From positions 1,720,007 through 1,784,006 of the forward strand of contig NZ_CP061309.1 of NCBI RefSeq assembly GCF_018687955.1: DNA of 64,000 nucleotides, given 5' to 3'. The position numbers were made by a program, and so were the translations under genes. The notes beneath the pieces were generated by a model that made no database searches, was not told the DNA's origin, and saw only the letters and a program-made list of their open reading frames with translations. Each line of letters begins with the position of its first letter. Position 1 is the first letter of the stretch. Below are positions 34,948-63,656 of this stretch, in pieces. Source of the DNA: Polynucleobacter ibericus (GTDB taxonomy: Bacteria; Pseudomonadota; Gammaproteobacteria; Burkholderiales; Burkholderiaceae).

Positions 34948-36037
34948 TCGGCTGGGGTAAGCCATAGCGCCCTAGCTGGCTTAAGGGCACCCATCTCAAA
35001 TCTGGATTTAAAAACGTCAACTCTTTTGCAGAGCTTGCCTGCCAAATCTGCATCCATAAACGCCGATGCGTAAAGACATGCTTAATTTCTTCTAACCGCT
35101 TTATAGAGGTGCAAGCCTTTGTCAGTACTGCACCCTTCTCATTGGGCAGTGTAGCGGCGAATAACTCCGGTGAGCCGATCTCAGCAGCTTGTGCAATCGA
35201 TGCTCTGGGTATCCATGGCCCCTCTGGTAAAGACCAAAGACCGCCCCAAATGGCTTTACTTGGGCGCTTTTGCAATAAAACAGAATTACCACAACGCATC
35301 AGTAGCATATTGCAATCAAATTCTGGAGATTTGGCCTTCTTTACTTTTTGCGGAAGCAAAAGAACTTGATCACTTAAATTAGCTTGGCAGTCTTTTGTAA
35401 ATGGGCATTTCTTTTCAGCGCCTAAGCAAACTGGTTTTCGTGACGTACACCAAGTGGCACCAAAGTCCATTAACGCTTGCGTATACACCGGCATATCAGC
35501 AGGTTTATTTGGCAACAAATCTATTGCTAAGGCCCATAGACGGTCGTTGATCCCTTTATCCTGTATCGCACCATCAATCGCAAATAGTCGCGCCAGAATA
35601 CGCTTGACGTTGGCATCCAAAATGGGTGCTCGCTCATGAAAAGCAAAAGCAGCGATAGCACCAGCGGTGCTACGCCCAATACCCTTTAATTGCTCAAGCA
35701 AAAGAGGGTCACTGGGAAACTGACCGCCAAACTCTGTCATGACTTGTTTGGCGCAAGCATGTAAATTTCTGGCACGCGAGTAATAGCCTAAACCGGCCCA
35801 CTCAGCGAGCACCTCATCCACATCAGCAGCGGCTAATTTTTTAACCGTTGGAAATCGCTTCATGAAACGGGGATAGCGCTCAAGCACAGTAGCTACCTGA
35901 GTTTGTTGCAACATGATTTCAGAAACCCACACTGCGTACGGATCACGATTACCCTGCCACGGCAATCCTGAGCGCCCACTGACACCATGCCAAGCGATCA
36001 ACTTTTGTGCAAAAGTATTGATCAGCGTTTTTGACAT
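34877..36037 (-). CDS. mutY: A/G-specific adenine glycosylase MutY
   Basis: Removes adenine mispaired with 8-oxoguanine. The 386-residue product has the helix-hairpin-helix LKGIGRSTAGAIAAFAF followed by the catalytic aspartate in PILDANVKRILARL, and a C-terminal Nudix-like 8-oxoG recognition domain. The [4Fe-4S] ligand set reads Cys-x6-Cys-x6-Cys-x5-Cys (CTSRKPVC...CPFTKDC), whereas the usual spacing has x2 in the middle, so the loop carries four extra residues. The C-terminus is extended into the convergent rapZ gene by 71 bases. The start codon overlaps the mutM stop by 16 bases. Confidence 0.95.
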   Translation of the reverse strand: MSKTLINTFAQKLIAWHGVSGRSGLPWQGNRDPYAVWVSEIMLQQTQVATVLERYPRFMKRFPTVKKLAAADVDEVLAEWAGLGYYSRARNLHACAKQVMTEFGGQFPSDPLLLEQLKGIGRSTAGAIAAFAFHERAPILDANVKRILARLFAIDGAIQDKGINDRLWALAIDLLPNKPADMPVYTQALMDFGATWCTSRKPVCLGAEKKCPFTKDCQANLSDQVLLLPQKVKKAKSPEFDCNMLLMRCGNSVLLQKRPSKAIWGGLWSLPEGPWIPRASIAQAAEIGSPELFAATLPNEKGAVLTKACTSIKRLEEIKHVFTHRRLWMQIWQASSAKELTFLNPDLRWVPLSQLGRYGLPQPIKLLLQGLSLVRGDDLKNSAANS

Positions 36038-36858
36038 TGGGGACAGAAGTACGTGGAGCGTTGACCCTGCACTATTTGACTGATAGGCGTTTTACATACT
36101 TTGCATGGCAAACCTTTACGGTCATAGACTTTGGTCTGAACCATGAAGTGACCAGGGTCGCCATCGCTATTGACGAAATCTTTTAATGAACTGCCGCCGG
36201 CATCGATTGCTTTTTTTAGTATCAATCTCACTGCCTTTGCTAGACGTGAGCATTGCGGTCGTGTGAGCTTGCCTGCTGCCTTTGCTGGATGAATGCCTGC
36301 CTCAAATAAACTTTCGGAACAATAAATATTACCGACGCCGACAACTGCTTGCCCCGCTAAGAGAAACTGCTTCACAGCAATGCTGCGTTTGCGTGAAGCT
36401 TGATACAAAATTTCTGTGCCCAACTCACCAGAAAATTCGGGGGAAAAAGGCTCCACTCCAAGCTTTTGCAAAAGCGTAAATTTTTCAATAGGGCCTTTTG
36501 ACTTAGCATGCCACAAGACAGCGCCAAATTTTCTAGGATCATGCAAACGTAAACTCAACTTACCAAACTCTAGCGTGACCCGATCATGCGTCTTGAGAGA
36601 ATCAGTGCTAGGAAGCACTCGCAGGGTTCCCGTCATCCCCAGGTGTACCAGCAAATAGCCCGTATCCATTTCTAGCAAAAGATACTTCCCGCGCCTCTCA
36701 ATGGCATGTACTTGTTGTCCGGGTAAGGCTTTTACCAGGCTGATAGGGACAGGCCAACGCAAGCGACCATCAATAATCTTGACGGCACTGACCTTACGCC
36801 CCTCAAGATGGGGGGCGATTCCTAATCGGGTGACCTCTACTTCTGGAAGTTCTGGCAT
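36022..36858 (-). CDS. mutM: formamidopyrimidine-DNA glycosylase MutM (Fpg)
   Basis: Excises 8-oxoguanine and formamidopyrimidines and cleaves the abasic site. The 278-residue product begins MPELPEVEVTRLG, with the catalytic Pro after Met removal and the Glu next to it. It has the helix-two-turn-helix segment VGVGNIYCSESLFEAGIHP and ends in a zinc finger with Cys-x2-Cys and Cys-x2-Cys pairs (CKVCKTP and CPQCQKR). It precedes mutY with overlapping ends, placing the two arms of the 8-oxoG defence in one transcript. Confidence 0.97.
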   Translation of the reverse strand: MPELPEVEVTRLGIAPHLEGRKVSAVKIIDGRLRWPVPISLVKALPGQQVHAIERRGKYLLLEMDTGYLLVHLGMTGTLRVLPSTDSLKTHDRVTLEFGKLSLRLHDPRKFGAVLWHAKSKGPIEKFTLLQKLGVEPFSPEFSGELGTEILYQASRKRSIAVKQFLLAGQAVVGVGNIYCSESLFEAGIHPAKAAGKLTRPQCSRLAKAVRLILKKAIDAGGSSLKDFVNSDGDPGHFMVQTKVYDRKGLPCKVCKTPISQIVQGQRSTYFCPQCQKR

Positions 36859-36893
36859 AAATGGATTGTAGATTCGCGGATTAGAATGTGCTT

Positions 36894-38381
36894 ATGAGTA
36901 AATTCATACTGAAACCTCTTTTAAAGGGGTTATTCCTGGCGACCTTGGCTGGTGGAGTCATTTCATCAAGTCATGCTCAAACCCAGCCAAATGGCATGCA
37001 AACGGGTGAAGCCGTCTTTGAAGTGCTTGCCTCCGAAATCGCCCTGCAGCGAGGTGAGGCTGGCTTAGCCTTCAATACCTACCTAGAGATGGCGCGTCAA
37101 TATAAAGATCCTAGATTGGCCCAAAGAGCCATGGAGATAGCGATCACAGGTGGCTCCCCCGATTTAGCCATGCAAGCAGCAAAGACTTGGGATGAACTCT
37201 CTCCTGCAGCAGATTCAAAACCCAAAGAGGTCTTAGTAACGCTATTGATCTTGAGCAATCGCTGGTCCGAAGCAATCAAGCCAGCGATTGCTTTGTTACA
37301 CCAACAAACTCCCGCGCAACAAGAAAATACGCTCTTACAATTGCAGGCATTGCTCGCCAAAGCAAAAGATGAGTCTGATGCCTTACGCGCTTTCTATGAA
37401 ATCGCATCTACCGTCAAGATTTCACCGAAAGATCCTGGTCTACTTTATACCTACGCCATGTCTGCTGAAAAAGCAGGTCGCATTGATGTGATGGAAAAAA
37501 CCTTGCGAGATATTTTGCGCAAGAACCCAAATGATGTGAACTCTCTGAATGCTCTTGGCTATTCCTTGGCAGATCGTAACGTGAAGCTGCCAGAAGCATT
37601 TGCGTTGATAAGCAAAGCGCATCAATTGTCACCAAAAGATGGTTTTATTTTAGATAGCTTGGGCTGGGTAAATTTCCGACTTGGCAAAAACGAACTAGCG
37701 CTAGAACAATTACGACAAGCGTTTGCAATAAAACCAGAAGCAGACATTGCAGCCCACATTGGTGAAGTGTTGTGGGTGATGAACCGTCAAACCCAAGCAG
37801 AGGAGATATGGCGTCAAGGGCAAAAATTAGACGCCAATAATCCAACGCTTAAAGAAACTTTAAAACGTCTAAAACCGGATTGGGCACGAGACGATCAAGT
37901 GGCTAAGGGCTCTTGGGATGGTCGCTTTGCTGTCAAGGTAACCGGTCTGACTGAAGCCCAAAACCAAGGGGGTTCTGGTGGTTTTACCTTGACCCAAGAA
38001 GCATTAAAAGATGTTTTAGAAATTCGCAATCCCATGGGTGGCTCAATTGCAAAAATTACCGTCATGCCAGGCGAAGCAACCCTTGAAAGTGATGGCAAGG
38101 TAGTTACTGCAGTGGATGCAGATACCTTGGTACAAAACGCCTTAGGACTTCCACTACCAGCGCGTGGACTCTCTAATTGGCTAAGAGGTGAAGTACGCCC
38201 CGGAGGCGAAGCAAGCATTGATAGAAACGCACAGGGTCAAGTAAAAAAGATCAGTCAGGATGGTTGGGACCTAGCATATACATGGAGTAATACCAATCAC
38301 CTTGAAAAACTCATCATGACCCGTAGTTCAAACATCGGTTCGATTGATATTCGACTCGTGTTTGATCGTCCGAATGACTGA
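36894..38381 (+). CDS. TPR protein fused to a C-terminal LolB-like domain
   Basis: Product of 495 residues with a signal peptide (MSKFILKPLL..., cleavage probably after SSHA), a tetratricopeptide region at about 35-330 (NDVNSLNALGYSLADRNV; KDGFILDSLGWVNFRLGK), and from about 340 a domain like LolB, the outer-membrane lipoprotein receptor. Shared features with E. coli LolB include EIRNPMGGSIAKITVMPG, where Met381 aligns with the protruding-loop Leu68, and LGLPLPARGLSNWLRG. The region precedes ispE, where separate TPR and lolB genes are normal in Burkholderiales. There is no lipobox cysteine, so the LolB part would not be lipid-anchored. The ATG at 36894 is preferred over GTG at 36888. Confidence 0.82.
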   Translation: MSKFILKPLLKGLFLATLAGGVISSSHAQTQPNGMQTGEAVFEVLASEIALQRGEAGLAFNTYLEMARQYKDPRLAQRAMEIAITGGSPDLAMQAAKTWDELSPAADSKPKEVLVTLLILSNRWSEAIKPAIALLHQQTPAQQENTLLQLQALLAKAKDESDALRAFYEIASTVKISPKDPGLLYTYAMSAEKAGRIDVMEKTLRDILRKNPNDVNSLNALGYSLADRNVKLPEAFALISKAHQLSPKDGFILDSLGWVNFRLGKNELALEQLRQAFAIKPEADIAAHIGEVLWVMNRQTQAEEIWRQGQKLDANNPTLKETLKRLKPDWARDDQVAKGSWDGRFAVKVTGLTEAQNQGGSGGFTLTQEALKDVLEIRNPMGGSIAKITVMPGEATLESDGKVVTAVDADTLVQNALGLPLPARGLSNWLRGEVRPGGEASIDRNAQGQVKKISQDGWDLAYTWSNTNHLEKLIMTRSSNIGSIDIRLVFDRPND

Positions 38382-38392
38382 GTAAAGTAATA

Positions 38393-39271
38393 ATGGTGAA
38401 CCTTGATCAATTAACACTGCGTTCGCCGGCTAAGCTCAATCTTTTTCTTCACATCGTTGGTCGCAGAGACGATGGCTACCATCTTCTTCAGTCTGTTTTT
38501 CAACTGATTGATTGGTGCGACACCATCCACTTAAAAAGAATTCCCCAGCATGAAGTGAGAAGAGTCAACCCGATGCCCGGTGTTCCCCCTGAACACGATT
38601 TAGTCGTTCGCGCTGCACACCTATTAAAAGATTTTTGCAAAATCGATGATGGTGTTGAGATCGACCTCCAAAAAGAAATTCCAATGGGTGCGGGTATGGG
38701 AGGCGGCTCTTCCGATGCAGCAACCACCCTAATTGGACTCAATGCTCTTTGGAACCTCAATCTCTCTAAAGATACGCTTTGTGCTCTAGGACTGAAGCTG
38801 GGGGCTGATGTTCCATTTTTCATTTTTGGTCAAAACGCCTTTGTGGAGGGCATTGGTGAAAAAATTCAGGGAATTTCCCTGGAAACCCCAGATTTTTTGG
38901 TGATATTCCCAAATCAGGGCATCGCAACCAAAAGTATTTTTCAAGACCCGGAATTGACCCGAGATCATGCTCAGATTACAATTGATGGCTTTCTTGCATC
39001 GCCAATGTCGTACCAATCGAATGATTGTCAGGCTGTTGCGATGCGGATTTGCCCAGAAGTGAAGCAAGCTTTGGATTGGATTACCCAGGCAGTAACGGGC
39101 TCTCAGCCCCGAATGTCTGGTTCTGGTAGTAGCGTTTTTTTAGCCTTAGACCCTAAGACTGACATCGCAAAACTAGAAAATCTTCTGCAAAATCTTCCTA
39201 AAGGGTGGGTAGGTCGGGTTGTTCGGGGGCTAAATAAAAATCCCGCTTACAATTTGATTTCTTCAGAATAA
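38393..39271 (+). CDS. ispE: 4-diphosphocytidyl-2-C-methyl-D-erythritol kinase
   Basis: GHMP-family kinase of the MEP isoprenoid pathway. The 292-residue product has the substrate region RSPAKLNLFLHIVGRRDDGYH, the phosphate-binding motif IPMGAGMGGGSSDAATTL, and the third motif PRMSGSGSSVFLAL. It follows the TPR-LolB gene by 11 bases and is followed directly by tRNA-Gln, prs and rplY, an order conserved in betaproteobacteria. Start is ATG, with GTG a codon later. Length is usual. Confidence 0.97.
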   Translation: MVNLDQLTLRSPAKLNLFLHIVGRRDDGYHLLQSVFQLIDWCDTIHLKRIPQHEVRRVNPMPGVPPEHDLVVRAAHLLKDFCKIDDGVEIDLQKEIPMGAGMGGGSSDAATTLIGLNALWNLNLSKDTLCALGLKLGADVPFFIFGQNAFVEGIGEKIQGISLETPDFLVIFPNQGIATKSIFQDPELTRDHAQITIDGFLASPMSYQSNDCQAVAMRICPEVKQALDWITQAVTGSQPRMSGSGSSVFLALDPKTDIAKLENLLQNLPKGWVGRVVRGLNKNPAYNLISSE

Positions 39272-39276
39272 GCTGT

Positions 39277-39353
39277 AGGGGAATCGCCAAGCTGGTTAAG
39301 GCACTGGATTTTGATTCCAGCATGCGAAGGTTCGAATCCTTCTTCCCCTGCCA
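39277..39353 (+). tRNA. tRNA-Gln (anticodon TTG)
   Basis: A 77-base cloverleaf can be folded: acceptor AGGGGAA pairs with TTCCCCT, the anticodon stem CTGGA/TCCAG encloses the loop TTTTGAT with anticodon TTG, and the T arm is GAAGG-TTCGAAT-CCTTC. CCA is encoded. It lies five bases after the ispE stop and before prs, a location known from related genomes. Confidence 0.97.
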
Positions 39354-39407
39354 AATACTGTAGAAACGACAAAGATAACCTTTTGACCCCACAAAACCCT
39401 TAAGACT

Positions 39408-40373
39408 ATGTCCTCCATAAACGCAGATTTATTGACTCTTTTCACAGGCAACGCAAATCCCGTTTTGGCCGAGGCTGTAGCCAAAGAACTGAATCTCCCC
39501 ATGGGAAAAGCCTTTGTTGGCCGTTTCTCTGATGGCGAGATCCAAGTAGAAATTCAAGAAAACGTCCGCGGCAAGAATGTCGTGGTGATCCAATCAACCT
39601 GTGCGCCAACAAACGACAGCTTGATGGAACTGATGATCATGATTGATGCGCTGAAAAGAGCATCTGCCAGCCGCATAACCGCGGTGATTCCTTACTTTGG
39701 ATATGCTCGTCAAGATCGTCGCCCCCGCTCTGCACGCGTTGCCATCTCCGCACGTATTGTGGCCAATATGCTTCAGTCTGTTGCTGGCATCGAGCGCGTT
39801 TTAACTATGGATCTGCATGCAGACCAAATTCAGGGTTTCTTTGATATCCCGGTAGACAACATTTACGCTTCTCCAGTTCTACTGGATGACCTACAGGCCC
39901 AGAAGACTCAGAAAGACCTGATCATCGTGTCACCAGACATTGGTGGCGTAGTACGCGCCCGCGCAATGGCCAAGCAGTTAGGCACTGATTTGGCGATTAT
40001 TGATAAACGTCGCCCTAAAGCAAACGTATCCGAAGTAATGCACCTGATTGGCGAAGTAGAAGGTCGCCATTGCGTCATCATGGATGACATCATTGATACC
40101 GGTGGAACCCTCTGTAAAGCCGCTGAAGCGCTCAAAGAGCGTGGCGCCAAGGGTGTTACTGCCTACTGTACTCACGCGGTCCTATCAGGCGGTGCTGTAG
40201 CTCGAATTGCTGCCTCTGAATTAGATGAACTGGTTGTTACTGACACCATTCCCCTGACCCCAGAGGCAATGAAAGTATCCAAAATTCGCCAATTAAGCGT
40301 CGCACCTATCCTCGCTGAAACCCTTTCCCGCATTAGCAAAGGCGATTCAGTGATGTCGATGTTTGCTGAATAA
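39408..40373 (+). CDS. prs: ribose-phosphate pyrophosphokinase
   Basis: Makes PRPP from ribose 5-phosphate and ATP for nucleotide, histidine and tryptophan synthesis. The 321-residue product has [17 protein letters not shown], the cation-binding motif [13 protein letters not shown], the flexible-loop region [15 protein letters not shown]-like (here [11 protein letters not shown]), and the PRPP loop [14 protein letters not shown]. Start is the ATG 54 bases after tRNA-Gln; the ribosome binding site is weak. A hairpin with 8-bp arms follows the stop. Typical class I enzyme. Confidence 0.98.
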
Positions 40374-40406
40374 GCCAAAAATCAGCGTTTTACCCCGGTT
40401 TTTGGC
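40374..40406 (+). terminator. hairpin after prs, probable terminator
   Basis: GCCAAAAA (40374-40381) pairs with TTTTTGGC (40399-40406) right at the prs stop, with a T-rich stretch after it. The loop is long, so efficiency is uncertain. Confidence 0.5.
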
Positions 40407-40447
40407 AGTTTTAAGCTTTTAGTAGGCAAAAACGTCCTTTCCCACGA

Positions 40448-40453
40448 TATAAT
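40448..40453 (+). promoter_or_regulatory. -10 element upstream of rplY
   Basis: A consensus TATAAT lies 57 bases before the rplY ATG, downstream of the prs hairpin. No good -35 is seen at 17 bases; the call is for the -10 only. Confidence 0.45.
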
Positions 40454-40509
40454 CGAAGGCTTTTCTGTTTGGTCGCGAACGGAAATTAACCTTAACTAGG
40501 GAATTCATC

Positions 40510-41154
40510 ATGAAAGTAGTAGCCTTTGAAAGAAGCGTACAGGGAACGGGTGCGAGCCGCCGTCTGCGCAATGCCGGAAAAACTCCGGGAATCGTTTACG
40601 GTAGTAAAGATCCAGTTGCTGTTATTGAGTTAGACCACAACGCACTGTTTCATGCTCTCCGCAAGGAAGCATTCCACTCATCCATTTTGGATTTGGAAAT
40701 TGGTGGCAAGACACAGAAAGTGTTGTTGCGCGATTACCAAATGCATCCATTTAAGCCATTGGTATTGCACATTGACTTCCAGCGCGTATCCGCGACTGAG
40801 AAAGTTCACATGCGCGTTCCATTGCACTTCACAAATGCTGACACTTCAGCAGCCGTGAAATTGCAAGGCGCTGTTATCAGCCACATCCTCACTGAACTTG
40901 AAGTTTCTTGCTTACCAGCAGACTTGCCAGAGTTCATTGAAGTGGACTTGGCGAAGATTGAAGTTGGTCATGGCGTTCACGCTAAAGACATTCCACTACC
41001 AAAAGGCGTTACTTTGGTATTGCATGTTGAACAAGAGAACCCAGTACTTGCAAACGCACGTATCCCAGCAGTTAAAGCTGCTGAGCCTACAGATGCGCCA
41101 GCTGCACCAGCAGCAGCTGCACCAGCGGCTGAAGCACCAAAGGATAAAGCTTAA
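40510..41154 (+). CDS. rplY: 50S ribosomal protein L25, long (CTC/TL5) form
   Basis: 5S rRNA-binding protein. The 214-residue product has the N-terminal L25 domain ([47 protein letters not shown]) and the C-terminal CTC beta domain, found in most bacteria but missing from E. coli L25. An Ala/Pro/Glu-rich tail ends the protein. The gene has its own probable promoter and a terminator before pth. Co-location of L25 and pth next to prs is widely conserved. Confidence 0.97.
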
Positions 41155-41183
41155 TTCATTAGCTAAATCGCTTGTACGAGAAG

Positions 41184-41207
41184 GCCCGCGCAAGCGGGCT
41201 TTCTTTT
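41184..41207 (+). terminator. intrinsic terminator after rplY
   Basis: GCCCGC/GCGGGC stem (41184-41199) with a four-base loop and a T-rich tail (TTTCTTTTTT), 30 bases after the rplY stop. Confidence 0.9.
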
Positions 41208-41249
41208 TTCCTTTTGTAGAAATACTTATATATCTTTAAACTCTGAAGC

Positions 41250-41840
41250 ATGACTAAATTAATTGTTGGCCTAGGTAACCCTGGGGACGAACATGAAGAA
41301 GATCGGCACAATGCTGGCTTCTGGTTTGTTGACGCCTTGGCTAAACAATTCAGCACTCGTTTTGAATCTGAAAAACGTTTTCATGGAAAAGTAGCGAAAG
41401 CCAAATGGGAAGGCGAAGACCTTTTTCTACTCAAGCCAAGCACCTACATGAATATCAGCGGTCAATCTGTTGGAGCACTGTGCCGCTTTCACAAAATTAC
41501 CCCGGCCGATATTTTGGTAGTTCAAGACGAGCTTGATCTCAAGCCTGGAACCGCACGCCTCAAACTAGGAGGAGGTACTGGGGGTCATAATGGATTAAAG
41601 GATATCCAGGCACATTTAAGCACTCCAGATTATTGGCGCCTACGCCTAGGTATTGGTCACCCGAGAGATCTAGCAGGTGATGGGCGCCCCATGGATGTTG
41701 CCGATTATGTATTGCGTAGGCCACAAATGGCCGAGCAAAAACTCATTGATGCCAGTATTGAAAACGGGCTGCAAGTTTTGCCACTCTTTTTAAAAGGTGA
41801 TACCCAAACTGCCATGATGGAGTTGCACTCTAAGGGTTAG
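41250..41840 (+). CDS. pth: peptidyl-tRNA hydrolase
   Basis: Releases tRNA from prematurely dropped peptidyl-tRNA. The 196-residue product has the opening LIVGLGNPGDEHEEDRHNAG, including the catalytic histidine in the RHNAG segment, then LLKPSTYMNISGQSV, VVQDELDLKPG and GGGTGGHNGLKDI. All are family signatures. It follows rplY beyond a terminator and is convergent with the ferredoxin gene five bases after its stop, which is unusually tight. Confidence 0.97.
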   Translation: MTKLIVGLGNPGDEHEEDRHNAGFWFVDALAKQFSTRFESEKRFHGKVAKAKWEGEDLFLLKPSTYMNISGQSVGALCRFHKITPADILVVQDELDLKPGTARLKLGGGTGGHNGLKDIQAHLSTPDYWRLRLGIGHPRDLAGDGRPMDVADYVLRRPQMAEQKLIDASIENGLQVLPLFLKGDTQTAMMELHSKG

Positions 41841-41845
41841 GGTAC

Positions 41846-42115
<270 letters not shown>

Positions 42116-42128
42116 TTACTCACTAATC

Positions 42129-42626
42129 TCACTCTTTATTCTGAGCGCCAGCAGCAATTTTATTGACCAACCATTTTTCCACTGATGGGAATACAAACTT
42201 GCTCACATCGCCGCCCATAGAGGCAATCTCGCGTACAAAGGTACCAGAGATAAATTGGTACTGATCAGATGGGGTCAAAAATAAAGTTTCAACATCAGGG
42301 AGCAGGTAGCGATTCATGCCCGCCATCTGGAACTCATACTCAAAATCGGAGACAGCGCGTAAACCACGCACAATCACGCGTGCATTGTGCTCACGTGCAA
42401 AATCTTTCAATAAACCCTTAAAACCCACAACTTTGACGTTGGGATAGTGACCTAATACTTCCTTAGCGATATCAATGCGCTCATCCAAGGTAAAAAATGG
42501 ACGCTTGCTACGACTATCAGCAACGCCCACAATGAGCTCCTTGAAAATACTCGATGCGCGACGTACCAAGTCCTCGTGGCCACGAGTAAATGGATCAAAT
42601 GTTCCAGGATATACAGCAACAGTCAT
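42129..42626 (-). CDS. coaD: pantetheine-phosphate adenylyltransferase
   Basis: Transfers AMP to 4'-phosphopantetheine, the penultimate step of coenzyme A synthesis. The 165-residue product has the nucleotidyltransferase start [20 protein letters not shown] with the HxGH-like catalytic His17, [20 protein letters not shown], and the second signature [12 protein letters not shown]. Length equals the family (about 160). It is flanked upstream by rsmD as in many bacteria, and downstream by a ferredoxin. Confidence 0.97.
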
Positions 42627-47988: not shown

Positions 47989-48573
47989 TTACTTCAGCAA
48001 TTCTTTCAAGTCATGCGCCAGGGTCTCTGGACCTTGAGCGTGCTTGATATATAAACGTAGGCGACCATCGGGATCAAATGCGTAGCTTCCTGCTGTGTGA
48101 TCCATGGTGTAAGAGCCTGCCTTAGTTCCGGGCACTTTCTTGTAATAAATCTTAAAGTCCTTAGTTACCTTCTCTAAGCCAGCCTCGTCTGCAGGACGAA
48201 GACCCAAGAAACGAGGGTCAAATGCAGGCACATATTGCTTCAAAATCTCGGCAGTATCACGCTCTGGGTCTACTGTCACAAAAAGCACCTGCACCTTATC
48301 TGACTGGGGCCCCAATAGGGTCATGACTTGCTGCATTTCAGTTAAGGTCGTTGGGCAGATATCGGGGCACTGGGTATAGCCAAAGAACATCACTACCACT
48401 TTGCCTTTAAAGTCAGCCAAGGTTCTCACCTTGCCATCAGGATCCAGCAAGCTAAAGTCTTTACCAAAGGCTGTACTGCCAGTGATATCTATATTTTTGA
48501 ATTCTGGTTTAGGACTACATGCAGTCAATACAAAACAAAGGATGGCTACAAAGCAAGCACGCAAAAAATTCAT
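47989..48573 (-). CDS. SCO1/SenC family copper chaperone lipoprotein
   Basis: Delivers copper to, or keeps reduced, the CuA site of cytochrome oxidase subunit II. The 194-residue product starts with a lipoprotein signal ending in the lipobox LTAC, then a thioredoxin-like fold with the copper cysteines CxxxC in YTQCPDICPTTL (about 72-76) and the distant histidine ligand in TMDHTAGSYAFD. It is the last gene of the heme A/oxidase assembly group (SURF1, a membrane protein, ctaA, ctaB, SCO), eight bases after the ctaB stop. Confidence 0.94.
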   Translation of the reverse strand: MNFLRACFVAILCFVLTACSPKPEFKNIDITGSTAFGKDFSLLDPDGKVRTLADFKGKVVVMFFGYTQCPDICPTTLTEMQQVMTLLGPQSDKVQVLFVTVDPERDTAEILKQYVPAFDPRFLGLRPADEAGLEKVTKDFKIYYKKVPGTKAGSYTMDHTAGSYAFDPDGRLRLYIKHAQGPETLAHDLKELLK

Positions 48574-62222: not shown

Positions 62223-63656
62223 ATGCGCCAATTTCTAAAGAACTTTGCCCTCATAGCTGTTGGTCTTATCGCTGGTGTGGCAGCCACGATTCAGCTCTCC
62301 GCCACTGCCCAACAAGGCTCGCAGCTGCCTCTAGATGAACTGCGCACGCTTTCTAATGTCTTTGCGCAAATTAAGCGCGAATATGTTGAGCCAATTGAAG
62401 ACAAGCAATTATTGACAGACGCTGTCAAAGGAATGGTGAGCAGTCTTGATCCACACTCCACCTTCTTGGATAAAAAAGATTTTTCAGAAATGCAAGAGCA
62501 AACCTCTGGAAAATTTGCAGGTCTCGGAATTGAAATCACCTCTGAAGATGGCGTAGTGAAAGTATTGAATCCGATTGAAGATAGCCCTGCGGCACGAGCT
62601 GGTTTGCAAGCAGGTGATTTAATTACTCGCCTGGATGACAAACCAGTGCGTGGTATGTCTTTAGATAAAGCAGTGCGCACAATGCGTGGCGCCCCTGGTA
62701 CCAAAATTACTTTGACGGTATTTCGTAAGAGTGAAGAACGTAGTTTTCCAGTCACCATTACTCGCGCAGAAATTAAAGTTCAGTCAGTCAAAACCAAGAT
62801 TCTCGATAACGATATTGCTTGGGTGCGAATTACAAGCTTTCAAGAACGCACTGTTCCTGACCTTGCTAAAAAATTGACTGATATTGCCAATCAAGATCCG
62901 AAGCTCAAAGGTGTCATCTTGGATCTCCGCAACAATGGTGGTGGCCTCCTCCAAGGTGCTGTAGGCGTAGCTGCCGCTTTTTTACCCGCTGATGCCATTA
63001 TTGTCTCAACTAAAGGGCAATCGCCGGACTCAAAACAGGTATTTAATGCGACTCCGGCAATGTACCGCTTAAGCGAGCCTGGCGACCCCTTAGCCGGCGT
63101 TCCAGCCATGTTTAAGAAATTACCGATGGTGGTTTTGGTAAACGCCTATTCAGCCTCAGCTTCTGAGATTGTGGCTGGCGCACTTCAAGACTACAAACGC
63201 GCAACTATTATTGGAAAAACAACCTTTGGTAAAGGCTCTGTACAAACTGTACGCCCTCTAACCAATGACTCAGCACTCAAGATCACTACCGCCTACTACT
63301 ACACTCCAAGCGGTAAATCGATCCAAGCCTATGGTGTGAAACCAGATATTCCAGTGGATCAAAACAAAGATGGCGATCCAGATGATGTCTTGATTACTCG
63401 CGAGATTGATAGTGAAAAACATCTACGTAATAAACAATCTGCTGAAGATAAGTTAATTAAAGATCGTGAGCAACGTCGCCTCGAAGAGTTACAGCGGATT
63501 GAGGAAAAGAATGCCAAGAAGACCCCCGAGGAAAAAGAGAAAGAAAAAAATAAGAAGCCAACTGAACTCGGTAGCGCAGATGACTTCATGCTTTCTCAAG
63601 CGGTGGCCTTTATTAATGGTCAGCCAGTAAAACGCTCTTCATCCAAACTCGAATAA
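62223..63656 (+). CDS. S41 family carboxy-terminal processing protease
   Basis: Periplasmic serine protease of the CtpA/Prc family. The 477-residue product has an N-terminal signal anchor, a PDZ domain (about 85-170: GLGIEITSEDGVVKVLNP, SPAARAGLQAGDLI), and the S41 domain with LRNNGGGLLQGAVGVAAAF, catalytic serine in NAYSASASEIVAGAL and lysine in GKTTFGKGSVQTVRPL. A charged Lys/Glu-rich segment near 415-450 precedes the C-terminus and is typical of betaproteobacterial members. It is preceded by gpmA and followed by a moeB-like gene, a known Burkholderiales order. Substrate unknown. Confidence 0.94.
   Translation: MRQFLKNFALIAVGLIAGVAATIQLSATAQQGSQLPLDELRTLSNVFAQIKREYVEPIEDKQLLTDAVKGMVSSLDPHSTFLDKKDFSEMQEQTSGKFAGLGIEITSEDGVVKVLNPIEDSPAARAGLQAGDLITRLDDKPVRGMSLDKAVRTMRGAPGTKITLTVFRKSEERSFPVTITRAEIKVQSVKTKILDNDIAWVRITSFQERTVPDLAKKLTDIANQDPKLKGVILDLRNNGGGLLQGAVGVAAAFLPADAIIVSTKGQSPDSKQVFNATPAMYRLSEPGDPLAGVPAMFKKLPMVVLVNAYSASASEIVAGALQDYKRATIIGKTTFGKGSVQTVRPLTNDSALKITTAYYYTPSGKSIQAYGVKPDIPVDQNKDGDPDDVLITREIDSEKHLRNKQSAEDKLIKDREQRRLEELQRIEEKNAKKTPEEKEKEKNKKPTELGSADDFMLSQAVAFINGQPVKRSSSKLE

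Follow-up and report, generated by a model that had tools for sequence, protein, structure and literature searches.

A natural LbcA-LolB fusion without a lipid anchor in the genus Polynucleobacter

The window analysed here is a stretch of 64,000 nucleotides from Polynucleobacter ibericus (NZ_CP061309.1, positions 1,720,007 to 1,784,006), in which an open frame of 495 codons (36894..38381, +) encodes a signal peptide followed by a TPR domain and, at the C-terminus, a LolB domain, both domains being recognised by profile and by PDB sequence match. A GTG at 36888 is an alternative start that adds two residues. Residues 1-28 (36894..36977, +) read from the translation as a type I signal peptide without a lipobox, likely cut after S-H-A and before Q. 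There follows an LbcA-type adaptor region (residues 34-103; 36993..37202, +) that includes the counterparts of the CtpA-contacting positions of Pseudomonas aeruginosa LbcA, as placed by the LbcA alignment, by conservation in 28 fused loci and by contacts given in the part of PMC11021448 consulted. The TPR superhelix (residues 109-327; 37218..37874, +) was delimited by profiles, PDB sequence match, predicted structure, Foldseek and VIA, and residues 34-327 as a whole are helical. A fast-evolving junction linker (residues 328-340; 37875..37913, +) leads into the LolB domain (residues 341-495; 37914..38378, +), which is without a LolB lipoprotein signal and is identified by PF03550, profile-profile comparison, Foldseek and VIA. 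Within it alignment and 28-locus conservation place the LolB hook NPMGG (residues 379-383; 38028..38042, +), with M381 at the position of Leu68 in E. coli. The earlier note had read a TPR region and a LolB-like C-terminal part in this one frame, and the TPR and PF03550 profile matches bear it out.

Cysteine is absent from the whole of the 495-residue protein, and a lipid anchor therefore cannot arise from any start codon in the frame. An internal start producing a separate lipoprotein is ruled out in the same way, and the cleavable-looking signal peptide without a lipobox cysteine that had been described from the letters alone stands. A loose A-x-A type cleavage site was found in 42/42 fused loci, whereas any cysteine occurs in only 5/42, none of them beyond residue 45, and a lipobox-like match in a single one (L085), inside the signal peptide. 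This locus, L085:4001-5485 of Polynucleobacter sp. AQU-01, has LVAC at signal-peptide residues 17-20 and a later A-x-A type site as well. To judge from these features, the fusion protein would leave the cytoplasm by way of a type I signal, with no lipid attached. Elsewhere in the window a strict lipobox pattern picked one ORF only (47989-48573, -; 194 aa, LTAC), which on reading resembles a SCO1- or TlpA-type thioredoxin-fold lipoprotein.

Next after the fusion gene, across a gap of 11 bases, is an ispE (ipk)-like gene (38393..39271, +), followed by a tRNA (39277-39350, +) and then by prs-, rplY- and pth-like genes, all of the protein-coding ORFs being named from their translations. The tRNA was the only hit of an RNA family scan of 36000-42200. 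It is usual for ispE (ipk) to follow lolB. The P. aeruginosa lbcA gene is described as sharing an operon with lolB and ipk, both essential (PMC6050968, seen in part), and with the ispE-like follower this means that the fusion occupies the place of lolB, joined to its usual upstream neighbour.

The genome is a single contig of 1.9 Mb, in which PF03550 gives one place only at E up to 10. A mixed LolB profile returned the same place and one further match (E 0.17), which was taken for chance, as it covers model positions 3-38 (the signal region) and has a stop inside. The search for a separate lolB that the earlier note had proposed thus found none with either profile. The same genome has one LolA, one LolC/E-type protein over the cut-off and no match to LPP. 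The single LolC/E-type protein suggests a LolDF-type transporter, a kind that is called typical in the consulted part of a review (PMC11784454). About 24 kb downstream of the fusion is a CtpA-type S41 protease (62223..63656, +), a likely partner of the LbcA half, identified as an ORF, as the sole PF03572 match in the genome and by PDB matches, the best of which are CtpA chains (best E 1.5e-108). At six contact positions, with numbers placed by pattern, three residues are unchanged and the others read Phe49->Leu, Leu53->Phe and Ala50->Ser. PF03572 is found in 60/61 genus genomes and in 51/51 of those at least 90% complete and clean.

Residues 155-292 hold matches to several TPR models, and the best match of the fusion among solved sequences is LbcA (PA4667, E 4.5e-45). 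With the whole-protein model LbcA also came first, both in Foldseek (E 1.4e-11) and in VIA (Z 20.6 over 288 residues, rmsd 9.8, with the next row at 17.5), and the TPR part of that full-length model is mostly at pLDDT about 85-97. The TPR reading of the earlier note was therefore sound as far as it went, but it missed the kinship with LbcA, the CtpA adaptor whose gene usually borders lolB on its upstream side. The identity of this half as LbcA explains the origin of the fusion and suggests a second function. The LbcA positions L53, Y54, L56, L57, V58, L61, A62 and V87 appear as V/I, F, V/I, L, A, I, A and L, respectively, in the 28 fused loci, and the CtpA contact made by Phe48 is lost, being replaced by Q, K, E or D. 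Except for Phe48, then, the alignment indicates that the hydrophobic CtpA-contacting helix of LbcA is present in the fusion.

The TPR superhelix of P. aeruginosa LbcA comprises 11 repeats. It is not found in full in the fusion, where nearly half of the TPR region is gone: aligned with four fused loci, the LbcA family model matches over about 119-162 positions on each side and skips about 230-260 between. LbcA is described as an outer-membrane lipoprotein that scaffolds CtpA and activates it against cell-wall hydrolases (PMC11021448 and PMC12569750, in the parts consulted). With no lipobox the fusion is not a member of that class, and by analogy its LbcA half may still bind and activate CtpA.

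The LolB half was recognised by PF03550 over residues 342-491 (E 2.6e-24) with 86.4 bits against a curated cut-off of 23.7, whereas the NCBIfam LolB equivalog TIGR00548 gave 40.5 bits against a cut-off of 59.6. Profile-profile comparison of 28 fused LolB domains with 13 unfused LolBs of the family aligned 153 columns at a probability of 99.7%. Folded alone, the domain gave a weak model, the best of five reaching pLDDT 65.1 and the other four 43.8-53.4, and in the full-length model both the LolB part and the linker are poorly predicted. Even so, the likeness of the C-terminal domain to LolB that the earlier note had put forward for structural comparison was recovered with this weak model, since rows 1-6 in Foldseek were all LolB and rows 1-7 in VIA were LolB at Z 13.3-14.6, the first LolA being at 12.0. 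No LolB is among the matches listed for the whole-protein model in Foldseek and VIA, which are filled by TPR proteins.

Studies of E. coli LolB indicate that Leu68, Trp117 and Trp52 matter and that W52P is defective (PMC10368991, seen in part, citing Hayashi 2014 for the three residues). Alignment sets NPMG of the fusion against NPLG of E. coli with M381 opposite the leucine, and that leucine is Leu68, as identified through the L68E and L68D chains in the PDB, which agrees with the equivalence originally proposed. The residue at this position is hydrophobic throughout the 28 loci (M 14, V 11, I 2, L 1). The Trp117 position is Trp in 28/28 and the Trp52 position is Leu in 28/28. From its relatives the LolB half would be expected to act as the receptor that takes lipoproteins from LolA to the outer membrane.

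It is also clear that the fusion is not confined to one genome. PF03550 was found in 117/121 genus genomes, including 96/96 of those at least 90% complete and clean, and the four without it are drafts 78-85% complete. In 114 of the 117 the LolB-match frame is 483-546 aa long; the other three frames (306, 393 and 455 aa) are close to the ends of contigs. The LbcA and LolB parts share one frame in 46/46 loci read, some of them in single-contig genomes, so that an assembly or frame error joining two genes is ruled out and the fusion is real, as the earlier note had held. These 46 comprise 42 loci (the present one, 10 from genus genomes and 31 from named records) and four more, with some species possibly represented twice; of the named records 23 are titled Polynucleobacter and eight are other beta-proteobacterial or Burkholderiaceae metagenome records. 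The LbcA-LolB fusion without a lipid anchor is thus natural and extends through the whole of this freshwater genus.

Both domains are under strong purifying selection. Across 28 loci the TPR half, taken in two parts, has a median dN/dS of 0.042 and 0.037 and LolB one of 0.043, whereas the linker reaches 0.27 and the signal peptide 0.29, and the contrast argues against a decaying domain. The medians derive from 378 pairs, of which 181-284 remain once pairs past synonymous saturation are left out; with synonymous sites near saturation the absolute values are rough, but the contrast between domains and linker is clear.

Outside the genus the two proteins are separate. Among the matches listed for the rest of the family, LbcA and LolB were both found in 54/60 loci (from 58 genomes), always in different frames, with four loci lacking a detectable LolB and two a detectable LbcA. 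The comparison across the genus and its relatives therefore gives a fusion throughout the genus and separate genes in the other family members read. A lipoprotein-type cysteine is present in the unfused LolBs of 56/56 loci, 46 with the usual lipobox pattern and 10 with LQAC or PQAC. Among unfused family LbcA frames, four of which run off the stretch read, the lipobox pattern matches only 3/28, in or before the hydrophobic core as read, and in two others (L056, L069) a cysteine that falls outside the pattern stands close to where the core ends. As none of the three matches is convincing, LbcA in the family was, from its sequences, probably not a lipoprotein before the fusion. Beyond the family LbcA looks like a lipoprotein in some lineages, such as L141, L146, L159 and L162, and not in others, such as L138, L139, L142 and L148.

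A LolB tree of 98 rows placed the 42 fused sequences in one group with support of 100/99, on a long stem of 1.95 changes per column. Surveys of the order and class, being samples of 155 and 147 genomes that would not reveal a fusion in a shorter frame, supplied further stretches. Of the 21 stretches read outside the genus, 20 have LolB and LbcA in separate frames; the set is made up of 16/20 from one collection and five from another and includes all eight order-survey frames longer than 360 aa and 5/6 of those from the class survey (a weak second match, G523, was left out). The remaining stretch, L158, was not counted as a fusion because its shared frame exists only across a run of N marking a scaffold gap. 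LbcA lies directly before LolB in 21/21 of these stretches, which were picked partly for long frames, and the lbcA-lolB neighbourhood looks old and wide. Small-genome Burkholderiaceae of genera g21 and g22 (L061-L066, L068) have a separate LbcA in short frames of 313-461 aa, that is, shrinkage without fusion. In another family of the order survey (f18) PF03550 is absent at E 0.01 from 4/4 sampled genomes (G364, G410, G453, G491; 97-99% complete), a possible case of real LolB loss.

The explanation that fits best, and which we hold to be probable without being secure, is that the old operon neighbours lbcA and lolB have fused and that an unanchored LolB domain, attached to a CtpA adaptor of LbcA type, is what completes the sorting of lipoproteins. 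The ancestor of the genus would have lost the stop of LbcA and the lipoprotein signal of LolB, with nearly half of the LbcA TPR region deleted. From LolA, lipoproteins would pass to the LolB domain at the C-terminus and be inserted into the outer membrane by its hydrophobic hook; the adaptor at the N-terminus may dock on CtpA, and the TPRs may bring CtpA its substrates. Correct placement without an anchor could come about if TPR or CtpA contacts keep LolB close to the outer membrane, or if an ATP-driven inner-membrane transporter re-extracts misplaced lipoproteins, so that only insertion into the outer membrane lasts. Counted in favour is that unanchored E. coli LolB accepts cargo from LolA (PMC10368991, PMC9457489 and PMC10094684, in the parts consulted), as is the presence of one LolB in the genome together with LolA, a LolC/E-type protein and CtpA. 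Counted against are the change of Trp52 to Leu, the shortfall against TIGR00548, the loss of Phe48 and the pLDDT of 65, and the long stem means that the function of LolB may have shifted.

A neutral origin has a sizeable, if less than even, chance of being the whole story. A deletion during genome reduction would have joined the neighbours, with the halves keeping their old jobs and both the link and the lost anchor being meaningless. The 1.9 Mb genome is in keeping with this, as is the shortening of LbcA both here and, unfused, in g21 and g22, and as is the absence of an LPP match from the genome, Lpp and OsmB being the lipoproteins reported lethal when misplaced (PMC11784454, seen in part). 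Against it, the fusion has been kept in every genus genome where it could be read. Neutral joining is in any case compatible with an unanchored LolB that completes sorting, and differs only on whether the link matters.

It seems unlikely that a bifunctional LolA, as reported for Caulobacter in the consulted part of PMC11784454, completes sorting alone and that the fused LolB is no longer a receptor but a lipid or lipoprotein sensor of the CtpA adaptor. The genome has one LolA, and the LolB domain, on its long stem, is without the anchor and the Trp52 equivalent and falls below the TIGR00548 cut-off; yet the hook and Trp117 positions are kept in 28/28 loci and LolB is as constrained as the TPR part. 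Cutting of the chain after export into soluble LbcA and soluble LolB is less likely still, for while the linker is fast-evolving and poorly predicted and a periplasm-acting protease is present, the linker alignment shows no conserved cleavage motif, and LolB would be unanchored all the same.

The fusion is best regarded as a variant of two known proteins, with a possible consequence for lipoprotein sorting that is drawn by analogy. Like E. coli LolB (PF03550, TIGR00548) it has the domain, the fold, the hydrophobic hook, the Trp117 position and the place before an ispE-like gene, but unlike it the fusion has no lipoprotein signal or cysteine, is joined to LbcA, carries Leu at Trp52 and lies below the equivalog cut-off. 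With P. aeruginosa LbcA (PA4667) it shares sequence, TPR fold, hydrophobic CtpA-contact positions, the location upstream of lolB and the presence of a CtpA-type protease, whereas it is no lipoprotein, skips about 240 middle positions of the family LbcA model and ends in LolB. The Caulobacter bifunctional LolA likewise completes sorting without a lipid-anchored LolB, but the consulted part of PMC11784454 recognises no LolB there, while Polynucleobacter keeps a constrained LolB domain. A parallel for a LolB without lipid is mLolB, the engineered unanchored E. coli protein; that, however, is a laboratory construct described, in the sources seen in part, as misplacing lipoproteins, in contrast to a natural, genus-wide and fused protein. 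No report of an LbcA-LolB fusion was found in a literature search judged by titles and abstract openings, with most subscription journals outside its scope.

E. coli cannot do without LolB, whose lipid anchor has been argued to keep lipoproteins from the wrong membrane (PMC11784454, in the part consulted). Here an unanchored protein of two parts seems to carry out an essential step that normally relies on an anchor. LbcA-CtpA activity in P. aeruginosa tracks how fast the cells grow and seems to be tied to phospholipid transport (PMC12569750, in the part consulted), which makes a functional link between the two halves conceivable. It is a doubtful but possible extension that LolB cargo tunes CtpA, or that CtpA docking places LolB, matching outer-membrane and wall growth without a lipid-anchored receptor. 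A genus apparently relying on a natural unanchored LolB would make the keeping of direction without an anchor directly testable, and the lbcA-lolB neighbourhood, met here as one chain, suggests that the delivery of lipoproteins may be coupled more widely to wall remodelling under the control of CtpA.
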